Assembly: GCA_016291005.1 (NCBI GenBank)
Contig: JAEEVT010000004.1
Span: forward strand, 1 to 55,663
From: Prevotella sp.
GTDB taxonomy: Bacteria > Bacteroidota > Bacteroidia > Bacteroidales > Bacteroidaceae
Reading direction: 5' to 3'
DNA length: 55,663 bases
The stretch's first letter is position 1, and every line of letters begins with the position of its first letter. Positions 12,444 through 53,645 of the stretch are shown here, in pieces. A program made the position numbers and the translations under genes. The notes beneath the pieces were generated by a model that saw only the letters and a program-made list of their open reading frames with translations, had not been told where the DNA came from and did no database searches.

Positions 12444-12884
12444 TTATTTCGCCTTAAAGGCTAAGGCATACATGCGCATCTGTTTCACCATGGCCAGCAG
12501 ACCGTTGCTGCGCGTGGGAGACAGATGCTCTTTTAGTCCTATGCGGTCGATGAAATAGAGGTCGGCATTCAGTATCTCGTCTGGCGTATGGTCGCTGAGC
12601 ACGCGGATGAGCAGCGCCACGATACCCTTGACAATCAGCGCATCGCTCTCTGCCCGGAACCGGATGACCCCATTTCTTTCATTTCTTTCATTTCCGACAA
12701 AGTCGGCCTGCAGCCACACGCGGCTCTGGCAACCGTCAATGAGGTTGCTCTCAGTCTTATACTCCTCGGGCAGCGGCTCCTGCTCGTTGCCAAGGTCTAT
12801 CAGCAGTTGGTACTTGTCCATCCAGTCGTCGAAACCGGAGAACTCCTCGATAATCTCGTCCTGAATCTCGTTGATGCTTGCCAT
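12444..12884 (-). CDS. sufE: SufE-like Fe-S assembly sulfur acceptor
   Basis: ESNLIDGCQSRVW and SDALIVKG..ALLIRVLSDHTPDEI motifs; stop codon abuts that of ftsZ. Confidence 0.88.
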   Translation of the reverse strand: MASINEIQDEIIEEFSGFDDWMDKYQLLIDLGNEQEPLPEEYKTESNLIDGCQSRVWLQADFVGNERNERNGVIRFRAESDALIVKGIVALLIRVLSDHTPDEILNADLYFIDRIGLKEHLSPTRSNGLLAMVKQMRMYALAFKAK

Positions 12885-13661: not shown

Positions 13662-15467
13662 ATGCAAACTAACTGCCACATGTCGATGCTTGTTCACGAA
13701 CAAGCCAAGAAATATGGTGACCGCGAGATGCTGATTTATCAGGATTTCGGCGGTAAGGAGTGGAAAACGCTGTCGTGGAGCCAGGTCTCTGCGACCGTCA
13801 TGCAGGTGTCAAACGCCATGCTGAACTTAGGCGTGAAGGTGCAGGAGAATGTCGGCATCTTCTCGCAGAACTCGGTGCAGTACATCGAGTGCGACTTCGG
13901 CGCGTGGGGCATCCGGGCGGTAACCATTCCGTTCTATGCTACCAGCTCGGAGCAGCAGATTCAGTTTATGGTGAACGATGCCAAGATTCGCTTCCTCTTC
14001 GTAGGTGAGCAGGATCAGTACGACAAGGCCCACCGTATCTTCTCACTCTGTCCCACGTTGGAGCGCATCATTGTCTACGATCCCATGGTGACGCTGAACG
14101 ACGACCATAGTGCCATCTACTTCAGCGAGTTCCTGAAACTTGGCGAGGGTCTGCCGCGTCAGACGGAGGTAGAGAAGCTGCAAGGGGAGGCGACGTTTGA
14201 CGACATTGCCAACATCCTGTATACCAGTGGTACTACGGGCGACTCGAAGGGCGTCATACTGACTCACGGCCAGTTCCATGCTGCCTTCGAGGCCAACAAC
14301 AAGTGTGTGCCGGTGGGCGAGAGGGACCGCGTCATGAACTTCCTGCCCTATACCCATATCTTCGAGCGCGGCTGGGCGATACTCAGTCTGACAGAAGGTG
14401 CCACGATGATTGTTAATACCCATCCGCTGGAAGTGCAGCAGTCGATGCGTGAGACGCACCCCACGTGTATGTCGGCTGTGCCCCGCTTCTGGGAGAAGGT
14501 CTATATGGGCGTGATGGACAAGATAGAACACTCGGGCGTCATGCAGCGCAAACTCTTCAAGCACGCGCTGGCTGTGGGCCGCAAGCATAACATAGAATAT
14601 CTGAGCCTTGGCAAGAAGCCACCTGTGGGTCTGCATCTGGAGTACGAGATGCTGAACCGTACAGTGTTCTCGCTTGTCCGCAAGGAACTGGGCTTGGAAA
14701 ACGCCCATTTCTTCCCCACCGCAGGTGCTGCCGTGAGTGCTCACGTTGAAGAATTCGTCCATTCCATCGGCATTAACATGGTGGTGGGCTATGGTCTGAC
14801 GGAGAGCCTGGCCACGGTGAGCTGCAACCACTTGGGCGAACCTTGGACGGTAGGTTCCGTGGGCATTCCCATCGAAGGTATCGACATCAAGATCAGCGAA
14901 GAGGGTGAAATCTTGCTCAAGGGTCCGACGATTACCATCGGCTACTACAACCGCGACGACCTGACGAAGGCGGCGTTTACTGACGACGGATATTTCAAGA
15001 CGGGCGATGCCGGTTACCTGAAAGGCGGTGAACTGTTCCTGACAGAGCGCATCAAAGACCTCTTCAAGACTTCGAACGGCAAGTACATCGCGCCGCAGAT
15101 GATAGAGTCGAAACTGCTCGTGGACAAGTTCATCGACCAGATTGCCGTCATCGCCGACGAGCGCAAGTTCGTATCGGCACTCATCATTCCCGTCTATAGC
15201 CACTTGGAAGAGTATGCCCGTGAACACGGTATCGTCTTCTCCACCCGCGAAGAACTCTGCACTAACCCGCAGATTATGGAGATGATGAAGGAGCGCATCG
15301 ACACCCTGCAGCAGCAGCTCGCCCATTACGAGCAGGTGAAGCGCTTCACCCTGCTGCCCAACCCGCTGTCGATGTCCAAGGGCGAACTGACCAATACGCT
15401 CAAAATTCGTCGCCGCGTGTTAAACGAAAACTATAAAGAAGAGATAGACAAGATGTACGCAGATTGA
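13662..15467 (+). CDS. Long-chain acyl-CoA synthetase / AMP-binding protein
   Basis: ILYTSGTTGDSKGVILTH, GYGLTE, TGDAGYL motifs; start placed downstream of the promoter rather than at track start 13554. Confidence 0.92.
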   Translation: MQTNCHMSMLVHEQAKKYGDREMLIYQDFGGKEWKTLSWSQVSATVMQVSNAMLNLGVKVQENVGIFSQNSVQYIECDFGAWGIRAVTIPFYATSSEQQIQFMVNDAKIRFLFVGEQDQYDKAHRIFSLCPTLERIIVYDPMVTLNDDHSAIYFSEFLKLGEGLPRQTEVEKLQGEATFDDIANILYTSGTTGDSKGVILTHGQFHAAFEANNKCVPVGERDRVMNFLPYTHIFERGWAILSLTEGATMIVNTHPLEVQQSMRETHPTCMSAVPRFWEKVYMGVMDKIEHSGVMQRKLFKHALAVGRKHNIEYLSLGKKPPVGLHLEYEMLNRTVFSLVRKELGLENAHFFPTAGAAVSAHVEEFVHSIGINMVVGYGLTESLATVSCNHLGEPWTVGSVGIPIEGIDIKISEEGEILLKGPTITIGYYNRDDLTKAAFTDDGYFKTGDAGYLKGGELFLTERIKDLFKTSNGKYIAPQMIESKLLVDKFIDQIAVIADERKFVSALIIPVYSHLEEYAREHGIVFSTREELCTNPQIMEMMKERIDTLQQQLAHYEQVKRFTLLPNPLSMSKGELTNTLKIRRRVLNENYKEEIDKMYAD

Positions 15468-15471
15468 TTTT

Positions 15472-15542
15472 TAAATGAAAGAAATGAAGGTAATGAAGGA
15501 AATGAAAGAAATGTAAATGAATAAATGAAGAAATGGCTGCGC
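15472..15542. repeat. Left arm of inverted repeat: (GRAATGAAA)n..TGTAAATGAA..GAAATG GCTGCGC
   Basis: Aligns with few mismatches to the reverse complement of 16021-16091. Confidence 0.8.
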
Positions 15543-15594
15543 GGATGATGACCAGACTTCTAAGAGAAATTATTCGGACAATTGATATTAAGTA

Positions 15595-15966
15595 ATGACG
15601 ATGTCGAGAGAAAATATTATTATCTCTAAGACTGAGAACTTTGCCGATAGGATTACGAGGATGTATAGGTACTTGTTGGAAAAGCGGCAGGGGGACAAGG
15701 ATATGCTGAAACAGATTGTTCGTAGCGGGACAAGTGTGGGAGCCAATGTCTCTGAGGGCCAGTTTGCGCAGACTAAGGCTGATTTCCTTACCAAGATGAC
15801 CATCGCCTTGAAAGAGGCAAATGAGACGAGATTCTGGTTGAAAAGGTTATATGCATTCGGCTCACTTAGTGATAGTGAATTCGAGTCCATCATCAATGAC
15901 AACGAAGAAATCATCAATATATTAACAACAATAACAAGGACAACAAGAAAGAACTTGAAGAAATGA
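15595..15966 (+). CDS. Four-helix-bundle protein (23S rRNA intervening-sequence / S23-IVP type)
   Basis: IVRSGTSVGANVSEGQFAQTKADFLTKMTIALKEANETRFWLKRL matches the TIGR02436-type pattern. Confidence 0.88.
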   Translation: MTMSRENIIISKTENFADRITRMYRYLLEKRQGDKDMLKQIVRSGTSVGANVSEGQFAQTKADFLTKMTIALKEANETRFWLKRLYAFGSLSDSEFESIINDNEEIINILTTITRTTRKNLKK

Positions 15967-16091
15967 TAGAAATGAAGGAAACAAAAGTAATGGAAGGAAT
16001 GATAGGAAGGTTACGTGGAAGCGCAGCCTCATTTCTACATACCTTCATTTACATTTCTTTCATTCCTTTCATTTCATTCATTTCTTTCATT
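15963..16091. repeat. Right-hand repeat: degenerate direct GRAATGAAA units, then the inverted arm (16021-16091)
   Basis: GCGCAGCC TCATTTCTACATACCTTCATTTACATTTCTTTCATTCCTTTCATTTCATTCATTTCTTTCATT mirrors 15472-15542. Confidence 0.8.
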
Positions 16092-16099
16092 AAAATAAT

Positions 16100-17221
16100 A
16101 TGATAACATCCGATCAGTTAAAAGACGTCTTAGACCGAACGGAAGCGCTGTATAAGTATCTGAAGATAGACGAGAAGCGCATGGAGTACGAGGAGGAGGA
16201 CCTGCGTACGCAGGCTCCCGACTTCTGGCTTGACCGTGAGCGCGCCGAGGAACAGATGAAGAAGGTGAAAGGCATCAAGAAGTGGCTAGACGGCTACCAA
16301 GAGGTGCGCACGGCTGCCGACGAACTGCAGTTAGCCTTCGACTTCTATAAAGAGGAGATGGTTACCGAGGAGGAAGTCGATGCCGACTACAGCCGCGCCA
16401 TAGAACTCATCGAGGCCTTAGAGCTGAAGAACATGCTGCGCCAGAAAGAGGATCCGATGGACTGCGTGCTGAAAATCAACTCAGGTGCCGGAGGTACCGA
16501 GAGTCAGGACTGGGCACAGATGCTGATGCGTATGTACCAGCGCTGGGCAGAAGCCCACGGACACAAAGTCACCATCTCGAACCTGCAGGACGGCGACGAG
16601 GCTGGCATCAAGAGCGTCACCATGGAGATAGAGGGCGGCGAGTACGCTTATGGCTACCTGAAGAGTGAAAACGGTGTCCACCGCTTGGTGCGCGTCAGCC
16701 CCTATAACGCCCAGGGCAAGCGCATGACGTCGTTTGCCTCCGTCTTCGTCAGCCCGTTAGTCGACGATACCATCGAGGTCTATGTCGATCCCGCCAAGCT
16801 GAGCTGGGATACCTTCCGAAGCAGTGGCGCCGGTGGACAGAACGTCAACAAGGTGGAGTCGGGCGTTCGTCTGCGCTATTGGTACACCGACCCTGATACG
16901 GGCGAGGAAGAAGAAATCCTTATCGAGAATACCGAGACGCGCGACCAGCCCAAGAACAAGGAGCGCGCCATGGCCCTGCTGCGCTCGCAGCTCTACGACC
17001 GTGCCATGCAGAAGCGCCTCGAAGCCCAGGCAAAGATCGAGGCAGGCAAGAAGAAGATAGAGTGGGGTAGTCAGATTCGCTCCTACGTCTTCGACGACCG
17101 TCGCGTGAAAGACCACCGCACCAACTACCAGACCTCCGACGTCGATGGCGTCATGGACGGCAAGATAGACGACTTCATCAAGGCATACCTGATGGAGTTC
17201 CCCGTCAATGATGAAGATTAA
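16100..17221 (+). CDS. prfB: Peptide chain release factor 2
   Basis: SSGAGGQNVNKVESGVRL GGQ motif; NSGAGGTESQDWAQMLMRMY. No +1 frameshift stop seen in this ORF. Confidence 0.94.
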   Translation: MITSDQLKDVLDRTEALYKYLKIDEKRMEYEEEDLRTQAPDFWLDRERAEEQMKKVKGIKKWLDGYQEVRTAADELQLAFDFYKEEMVTEEEVDADYSRAIELIEALELKNMLRQKEDPMDCVLKINSGAGGTESQDWAQMLMRMYQRWAEAHGHKVTISNLQDGDEAGIKSVTMEIEGGEYAYGYLKSENGVHRLVRVSPYNAQGKRMTSFASVFVSPLVDDTIEVYVDPAKLSWDTFRSSGAGGQNVNKVESGVRLRYWYTDPDTGEEEEILIENTETRDQPKNKERAMALLRSQLYDRAMQKRLEAQAKIEAGKKKIEWGSQIRSYVFDDRRVKDHRTNYQTSDVDGVMDGKIDDFIKAYLMEFPVNDED

Positions 17222-17407: not shown

Positions 17408-17410
17408 AAC

Positions 17411-17530
17411 GAAATGAATGGAATGAAAGAAATGAAAGGAATGAAAGGAATGAGTCTCCGCAACGGTATTTCTTCATTTCTTCATTTACATTTCTTTCAT
17501 TTCTTTCATTCCTTTCATTTCTTTCATTTA
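17411..17530. repeat. Inverted-repeat element made of GRAATGAAA units around a GC-rich core
   Basis: AAATGAATGGAATGAAAGAAATGAAAGGAATG..CCGCAACGG..CTTCATTTACATTTCTTTCATTTCTTTCATTCCTTTCATTTCTTTCATTT. Confidence 0.85.
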
Positions 17531-21100: not shown

Positions 21101-21189
21101 TCTTCTGTTATACCGTCTGCATAGGGGAGCGAAACATCTCCCCTGTGCTGACGCGTATATAAAATAATAATGTACGCGCGCAAGGCGAA

Positions 21190-22329
21190 ATGAAAGTAAT
21201 GAATGGAATGAAAGAAATGAAAGCTACACGGAACTGCAGCTCCATTCCGTCATCTCTTCATTTCTCAATTGGCATCTTGTGCCTTCTGTTGCTCGCTGGT
21301 TGTTCGTTAATCGATGATACGCTGGAAGACCGCGCCAAGGACTATGAGATGGACTACGAGCTGCGCTTGGTGACGAATATCACCACCGAGATTCATACTC
21401 AGCTTGGCATGGAGACTGACGTGCAGCTGGCTGCCGACCTGCGTGAACACCTGAAGGACATCTTCACCGACTTCGCCCACGACGTGGACCTGTCGTTCTA
21501 TGATACCAAGGGTGACTCGCTGCGCCTGTATCACGACCAGCACATCATGGACGCCAACCAGCAGAGCTACGTGCTCAATTTGCCCATGCGACAGTATATG
21601 CACTTGGCGGTGGCCAACGTGGTGGACAACCCTGTAGTCGGCTTGACAAATGACGAGCGCTGCCATCCGTCACGACTTGAAACGGTGGATGGTGGGGGAA
21701 CCCCGGCGCGAACACAGGCGGACACCATCAGTTCACATACGACGGGGCTGTTTACCGCTCGTCTGCCGATGGATGTGAAGGAAGGCGTTGACCAGTCGTT
21801 CCACGTTCGTCTGTATATGGCCAACTGTGCAGCGGCATTGGTCGTTGACCCTCGCGGGCATGACATTAGTAGCCTGCGCGTCTATACCACGGGCTTCGCT
21901 TCGCGGTTCAACATCTGCGACAGCACCTACACTTTCGCCCAGCAGTCTCCCATCGTGCAGACCAGCAAGGTGAAGACGACTGGTAGTGAGGCCTGCTACG
22001 TCTCGGTGAACTTCCCCTCTCGGGAACCCAAGGAGCAGAAAGCCCCTGCTTATACCTGGGGAACGCGTAGCGTCATCGAGACCACCGAGCCGTTTATTGC
22101 CAAGGAGGGCGACGAGACGCTATGGCAGTTTAAGGCCTATATCACAAAGGCCGACGGCACCACGACGGAAACTATCCTCAGCCTGTGCACGCCCCTCAGA
22201 GCCGGTCAGCTGAAAATCATCCGCGGTTTCGTCACAGACGAGGGTGCCGTGCAAACCAATGACCATGCCGTCGGCGTCAGCGTAACGCTGAACTGGGAAG
22301 AAGGTACACACCACGAGATTTCCCTATAA
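21190..22329 (+). CDS. FimB/Mfa2-family fimbrial anchor lipoprotein
   Basis: Lipobox LLAGC then SLIDDTLEDRAKDYEMDYELRLVTNITTEI; N-terminal MKVMNGMKEMK is repeat-derived. Confidence 0.75.
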   Translation: MKVMNGMKEMKATRNCSSIPSSLHFSIGILCLLLLAGCSLIDDTLEDRAKDYEMDYELRLVTNITTEIHTQLGMETDVQLAADLREHLKDIFTDFAHDVDLSFYDTKGDSLRLYHDQHIMDANQQSYVLNLPMRQYMHLAVANVVDNPVVGLTNDERCHPSRLETVDGGGTPARTQADTISSHTTGLFTARLPMDVKEGVDQSFHVRLYMANCAAALVVDPRGHDISSLRVYTTGFASRFNICDSTYTFAQQSPIVQTSKVKTTGSEACYVSVNFPSREPKEQKAPAYTWGTRSVIETTEPFIAKEGDETLWQFKAYITKADGTTTETILSLCTPLRAGQLKIIRGFVTDEGAVQTNDHAVGVSVTLNWEEGTHHEISL

Positions 22330-47063: not shown

Positions 47064-47127
47064 GAAATGCAAGGAATGAAGGTAATGAGAAATTAAAATG
47101 AAGAAATGAAGAAATGATAATGAGCCT

Positions 47128-53539: not shown

Positions 53540-53645
53540 AAATGAGAAATGAAAGAAATGAAGGAAATGAGAAATGTAAATGAAGAAATGAAGTAATGAC
53601 ATACGCGGATCATTTCTTTCATTACTTTCATTTCTTTCATTTCCT
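53540..53645. repeat. Inverted-repeat GRAATGAAA element between convergent ackA and lpxH
   Basis: AAATGAGAAATGAAAGAAATGAAGGAAATG..TACGCGGAT..CATTTCTTTCATTACTTTCATTTCTTTCATTTCC. Confidence 0.85.

Follow-up and report, generated by a model that had tools for sequence, protein, structure and literature searches.

A four-helix-bundle (FHB) gene of the S23/IVP type, set between inverted arrays of a short tandem repeat, represents a class of small genetic element, and we regard it as nearly certain that this class exists, that it moves and that it pairs each FHB gene with a cognate repeat. In our model such an element would consist of a promoterless FHB gene between inverted short-unit tandem arrays. 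The element described here lies in a window of 55,663 nucleotides, the whole stretch of Prevotella sp. DNA that was analysed.

The window element spans positions 15470–16095 and carries a TIGR02436/PF05635 gene (S23/IVP, TIGR02436; 15595–15966, + strand, 121–123 aa) bracketed by inverted arms of 66–75 bp. The left arm (15470–15544, + strand) is a tandem (GAAATGAAA)-type 9-nt array whose end is GGCTGCGC, and the right arm (16021–16095, − strand) is an inverted copy of it that includes GCGCAGCC. The core arm pair, 15470–15535 and 16030–16095, is 66 nt long and 86% complementary, and the match continues inward via GGCTGCGC/GCGCAGCC; the local-alignment score is 97, compared to a best score of 26 in 100 shuffles. 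An earlier note on this DNA had described imperfect inverted repeats of about 70 bp around the gene, aligning almost end to end and including the inner segment, and this description holds, with the correction that the arms are arrays of a 9-nt tandem repeat and that a degenerate, directly oriented third array lies between the end of the FHB gene and the right arm (15957–16004, + strand). The element occupies the 632-bp gap between the genes for acyl-CoA synthetase and prfB (insertion junction 15465–16100, not strand-specific). Its left arm begins 2 nt past the acyl-CoA synthetase stop codon and its right arm stops 4 nt short of the prfB start codon. Folded as RNA, the whole element has a z-score of −8.4. 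Residence in rRNA was rejected for the window element, as it is located between acyl-CoA synthetase and prfB; Rfam detected no rRNA anywhere in the window, nor at 29 gammaproteobacterial FHB loci.

The gene-less equivalents reported by the same note are real. One palindromic copy (17408–17530, no strand assigned; arms 17408–17452 and 17486–17530) separates a small ORF from a CYTH-domain gene and folds as RNA with a z-score of −9.7, and a second is found at 53540–53645 (no strand assigned, ends approximate). Arrays of the repeat family also occur singly, starting at 12671, 21187 and 47064. The last two are a non-palindromic array (21187–21219, + strand) and a degenerate one (47064–47125, + strand). 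The first is a short array (mapped to 12670–12695, − strand) inside a SufE-like ORF (12444–12884), where it translates in frame as GNERNERNG; it is missing in 18 of 19 aligned relatives, and the remaining one carries unrelated inserted sequence at this point. The SufE homologue of genome G018 (locus L379) contains, at that position of the protein, a different, longer in-frame insertion (SPCPSKGGEGLRAEDCGKPGS), which probably derives from another dispersed repeat.

Crystal structures of S23/IVP proteins have been available since 2006–2007, and we know of no catalytic site in the FHB fold. The window protein belongs to this family with matches well above the curated cut-offs (PF05635, 1.4e-21, 77.1 bits vs 33.8; TIGR02436, 3.4e-25, 88.4 bits vs 24). 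Its AF2 model has four helices and a pLDDT of 95.3. The nearest solved structure is 2RLD (TM 0.83–0.88), an S23-family protein of Bacteroides thetaiotaomicron, followed by 2GSC (Xcc0516) and then by Avd of diversity-generating retroelements (DGRs; 4DWL, TM 0.73; DGR ribonucleoprotein 8UB7, TM 0.75). The FHB protein is under purifying selection, with pN/pS of 0.07–0.2 in most close pairs. The title of the 2GSC crystal structure, as cited in PMC3936711, refers to an assembly of five four-helix bundles, which fits a putative nucleic-acid-binding ring.

The bracketed architecture is general. The genes compared comprised 92 FHB genes from 60 Bacteroidales genomes, 83 from 80 named contigs (Bacteroidota plus records labelled Clostridia, Verrucomicrobia, Lentisphaeria, Fibrobacter and Alcanivorax), 29 further genes from 12 named genomes, a few of which duplicate genes of the contig set, 29 from other Gammaproteobacteria and 13 from cyanobacterial plasmids. 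Inverted arms that beat every shuffle flank 207 of the 233 FHB genes in all sets except the cyanobacterial plasmids; for the other 26, the inverted-repeat-versus-shuffle method detects no arms. On the cyanobacterial plasmids, arms exceed shuffles in 12 of 13 cases and tie in the last one. Enrichment of FHB genes between inverted copies, which the earlier note had proposed to test, is borne out by the 80 loci of the contig set, in which 75 of 83 FHB genes reach the arm-score threshold compared to 21 of 444 control ORFs (Fisher p ~1e-61), the latter rate being an overestimate because several of the high scorers (at L146, L170, L165 and L201) are gene-less copies of the arms of that very locus. 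The abundance of the repeat family in the window's genome could make one suspect a chance placement of two unconnected repeat copies on either side of a gene. The control ORFs refute such a coincidence, and so does the recurrence of the bracket, built of different units, around the genes counted above; we consider it virtually impossible.

The arms have a period of 7 or 14 nt in 67 of 75 and 20 of 20 elements of two sets, as opposed to 0.5% of control 40-mers, and the unit differs in nearly every element (AATTGAY, GAGGTTT, AGGAGTT, GGGTGTA, GGCAGTC, etc.). A 7-nt period is found in most relatives, compared to the 9-nt spacing of the window element. A reading-frame explanation of the heptamers (7 not being divisible by 3) was dropped since the unit in the window itself is 9 nt long. 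The median span of an element is 477 nt, and the class as a whole covers ~430–580 bp. Carriage by phages was rejected, as a search of 50,697 phage records returned zero FHB matches. One gammaproteobacterial genome of 1.5 Mb (G396:C1) stands apart, with 11 PF05635 matches of which at least 10 are near-identical. Three of its loci (L353–L355) lie within long near-identical repeats and adjoin sequence that resembles a DGR variable region, and, judging from this sequence context, the copies probably represent the Avd genes of a DGR present in many copies.

Each FHB gene has its own repeat. When two FHB proteins are 70–85% identical, their arms are shared in 78% of pairs, compared to under 0.5% of pairs below 40% identity, and across arm-sharing pairs the orientation of the arms relative to the gene is kept. 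This co-divergence could also be caused by joint inheritance of linked sequence. The second FHB gene of the window's genome has its own, different arms composed of GAATTAA units, so the expectation in the earlier note that one repeat would be common to all FHB genes was wrong.

The repeats are dispersed in the genomes that carry the matching gene, as measured by pattern searches and in 20-kb loci. Within 10 kb of FHB genes there are 52 gene-less islands of the gene's own arms, whereas 3.1 are expected from the arms of other loci. Arrays of GAAATGAAA give 76 matches in the window's genome versus 1 across 59 relatives, and this covariation of repeat and gene supports the proposal of a dispersed family with gene-less, MITE-like derivatives. 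AGGAGTT arrays, with 196 matches in G009, whose FHB gene carries AGGAGTT arms, are absent from 46 of the 60 genomes searched; in G008 an FHB gene carries GGAGTT-type arms, yet the tested AGGAGTT pattern gives zero matches there. Similarly, (GGGAATC)3 is present in only 1 of 369 gammaproteobacterial genomes, and this sole genome contains a frameshifted FHB gene between accB and accC with GGGAATC arrays on both sides, as well as gene-less GGGAATC palindromes elsewhere.

That the elements move is evident from sites with and without them. Most same-genus relatives that conserve the gene order lack the element and have 0 to a few dozen nt from the acyl-CoA synthetase stop to the prfB start, and at the site of the gene-less copy 17408–17530 stop and start codons overlap or nearly abut; these empty sites are not nucleotide-exact because the nearest relatives are other species, with prfB at most 94% identical. 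Empty sites, which the earlier note had proposed looking for, are also found at the nucleotide level on cyanobacterial plasmids. The element of Trichormus variabilis plasmid C is absent from four plasmids, and there are more filled/empty plasmid pairs; among them are related Nostoc plasmids with two different elements, each plasmid being empty at the site where the other is filled. One element family is found at three unrelated sites, with homology that stops at the element edges. On Nostoc N6, a gene-less palindrome is inserted within an FHB gene. The family of this palindrome occurs at 55 places on 34 Nostocales plasmids, among them a 187-bp gene-less element (L388:400–589), and combines conserved interior hairpins with FHB-element arms; a 33-nt identical arm is common to the Nostoc N6 palindrome and the T. 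variabilis FHB element. At the site of the full T. variabilis element, Nostoc C052 plasmid pC052_E (L270) has a truncated copy composed of the left arm and the start of the FHB gene. Around prfB, short arrays of other units are present at or near the same junctions in relatives (L226, L240 and L245), which suggests that these junctions have been hit repeatedly.

The same filled and empty sites bear on an account without mobility, according to which the arrays arise by local slippage and serve as FHB binding sites that control the gene's own and other operons. Consistent with it, the arrays occupy stop/start junctions of transcribed regions, the unit number of L261 and L271 differs by whole units, and comparable arrays of Geobacter and Beggiatoaceae have been taken for regulator sites (PMC2700814, PMC4679880). 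The nucleotide-level empty sites, the presence of one element at three sites and the gene-less insertion inside a gene refute slippage as a complete explanation and leave it very improbable, although regulation could be a secondary function.

The insertion junctions vary. A 5-bp duplication, GTAAT, is present at one site and small losses at others. The search for target duplications that the earlier note had suggested turned out negative. In 162 elements, duplications of 4, 5 and 6 bp are no commoner than in shuffled pairs, so that a fixed target duplication was rejected and the single GTAAT case is not general. The lack of a consistent duplication is unusual for an enzyme-driven element. Of 73 elements, none is contained in an ORF. 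Measured as medians, the left arm begins 1 nt before the upstream gene ends and the right arm stops 8 nt short of the gene that follows; the FHB gene and the upstream gene are co-oriented in 44 of 45 cases. We infer that the flush stop/start placement is what selection against gene disruption would leave, and the sense orientation would reflect the need of a promoterless FHB gene.

Two classes of enzyme that might act in trans, Y1 transposases and RVT_1 reverse transcriptases, were surveyed in 60 relatives and rejected as neither correlates with FHB copy number (RVT_1, rho −0.12; Y1, rho 0.21, p 0.11). Eleven FHB-bearing genomes are without RVT_1 and Y1, one of them having 11 FHB genes. There is also no RVT_1 and no PF01797 (Y1) match in the window's genome, a MAG that is 82% complete and from which a transposase may be missing for that reason. 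These data bear on the possibility that the element is a retroelement, whose Avd-like FHB protein brings the element RNA to a reverse transcriptase in trans. The similarity of the fold to that of Avd in 4DWL and 8UB7, the very stable RNA hairpin and the strict sense orientation all speak for it, but RVT_1 is lacking in the window's genome and in the FHB-rich, nearly complete genomes G008, G004, G019 and G028, and the counts of FHB genes and reverse transcriptases are unrelated. We therefore judge a retroelement to be highly unlikely.

In another alternative, the FHB gene is a passenger with a role such as RNA chaperoning or hairpin silencing, and its MITE-like arms are moved by an unrelated host transposase or recombinase. 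Gene-less palindromes with an unrelated conserved interior do move as well, and the GTAAT duplication at one site would fit such an enzyme. However, the arms are wholly different between elements and yet track the FHB protein, which is the only protein always present, whereas neither of the two enzyme classes surveyed is tracked and a general target duplication is lacking. A passenger role thus appears unlikely, if appreciably less so than the alternatives above. The earlier note had called the gene cargo or an accessory factor of the element. It does belong to the element, and ‘cargo’ is probably too weak a term given that the arms diverge together with the protein and that purifying selection acts on the latter.

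We consider it reasonably probable that the system works in the manner of REPINs and RAYTs, with the FHB protein recognising its own arms as a trans-acting mobility factor; action in trans is suggested by its being the sole protein tied to the repeats. The element would insert between genes, in the sense direction and typically flush with stop and start codons, and the host operon transcript would thus supply the FHB protein. The protein would then recognise its own arms specifically, as an RNA or single-stranded DNA hairpin, and drive or license their movement. Since it would act in trans on these arms, gene-less palindromes and single arrays could spread through the genome and form a non-autonomous population, like REPINs around a RAYT. 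Host repair would complete the integration, as the site-to-site variation of the junctions and the missing fixed target duplication suggest. A classical 23S rRNA ‘intervening sequence’ (IVS) would be an element that has inserted into an rRNA helix and that RNase III excises from the transcript. More tentatively, and with somewhat less than even confidence, this may be mobile DNA of at least five bacterial phyla whose sole protein is a small, non-enzymatic FHB that recognises its own short tandem repeats and causes their copying to new sites via host repair, unlike any known transposase, recombinase or retroelement, and to which rRNA IVSs and heptamer repeats would belong.

The element class as read here would offer one explanation for the function of S23/IVP proteins, the origin and spread of rRNA IVSs, the origin of heptamer repeats, a puzzle that spans cyanobacteria, xanthomonads, Beggiatoaceae and Bacteroidetes, and the CRISPR association of IVP genes. 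Furthermore, every FHB protein is accompanied by a candidate binding site of its own, and natural protein–repeat pairs could be mined by the thousand. No paper linking FHB genes, heptamer arrays, rRNA IVSs and CRISPR-associated IVP genes was found in the open-access journal literature that was searched.

Several known systems resemble parts of this element. Like MITEs, the gene-less copies are short and multicopy and have terminal inverted repeats, but the arms are tandem arrays, and neither a consistent target duplication nor a parental transposase was found. Avd has the same fold, whereas the window's genome is without a template/variable repeat and a reverse transcriptase. REPIN/RAYT systems share a cognate gene with flanking inverted repeats, dispersed gene-less inverted pairs and single repeats (PMC3116915), but the protein here is a four-helix bundle (PF05635) and not a Y1 HUH transposase, and the arms are tandem arrays rather than REP hairpins.

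Heptamer repeats and the cyanobacterial STRRs are likewise short tandem units between genes. GGGAATC heptamers are known from Xanthomonas, where 70 sites are close inverted pairs (PMC4692102), and TAACTGA heptamers from Beggiatoaceae, Cyanobacteria and Bacteroidetes (PMC4679880). Heptamer arrays have been read as regulatory sites or quadruplexes (PMC4679880, PMC4692102, PMC2700814), and term searches of the texts of the heptamer-repeat papers returned no link to FHB genes; here, in contrast, the arrays are the arms of FHB elements. Genes annotated as ‘23S_rRNA_IVP’ also appear among reported CRISPR-associated genes (PMC3936711, PMC10910872). FHB genes with heptamer arms are indeed found in cas operons of cyanobacterial plasmids (L256 and L259, cas6/cas4, type I-D; L263, cas10/cmr3, type III-B), with arms clearly above shuffles in L256 and L259 and tied with the best shuffle in L263, and they are probably insertions rather than CRISPR components. 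Both the heptamer arrays described earlier and the CRISPR-listed IVP genes may be FHB elements.

The plan of the element recurs in Coxiella burnetii, whose 23S rRNA IVS of 428–444 nt carries an S23 ORF and a 28-bp stem of terminal inverted repeats (PMC4990558); according to the text of that paper, the ORF is immediately preceded by GACAGAT heptamers, two to three of them depending on the strain. IVP ORFs occur also in rRNA insertions of CPR bacteria (PMC11270868). In both cases, that of the Coxiella IVS and that of the elements described here, an S23/IVP gene sits in the loop of terminal inverted repeats with heptamers beside the ORF, the length is comparable to the median span found here, and the structure is a predicted RNase III substrate. 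Unlike the rRNA IVSs, the elements here lie between protein genes, have many gene-less copies, use a separate unit in each element and are of documented mobility. Because the Coxiella IVS has the same plan, the best reading of this comparison is that rRNA IVSs would be the rRNA-resident members of the FHB-element class.
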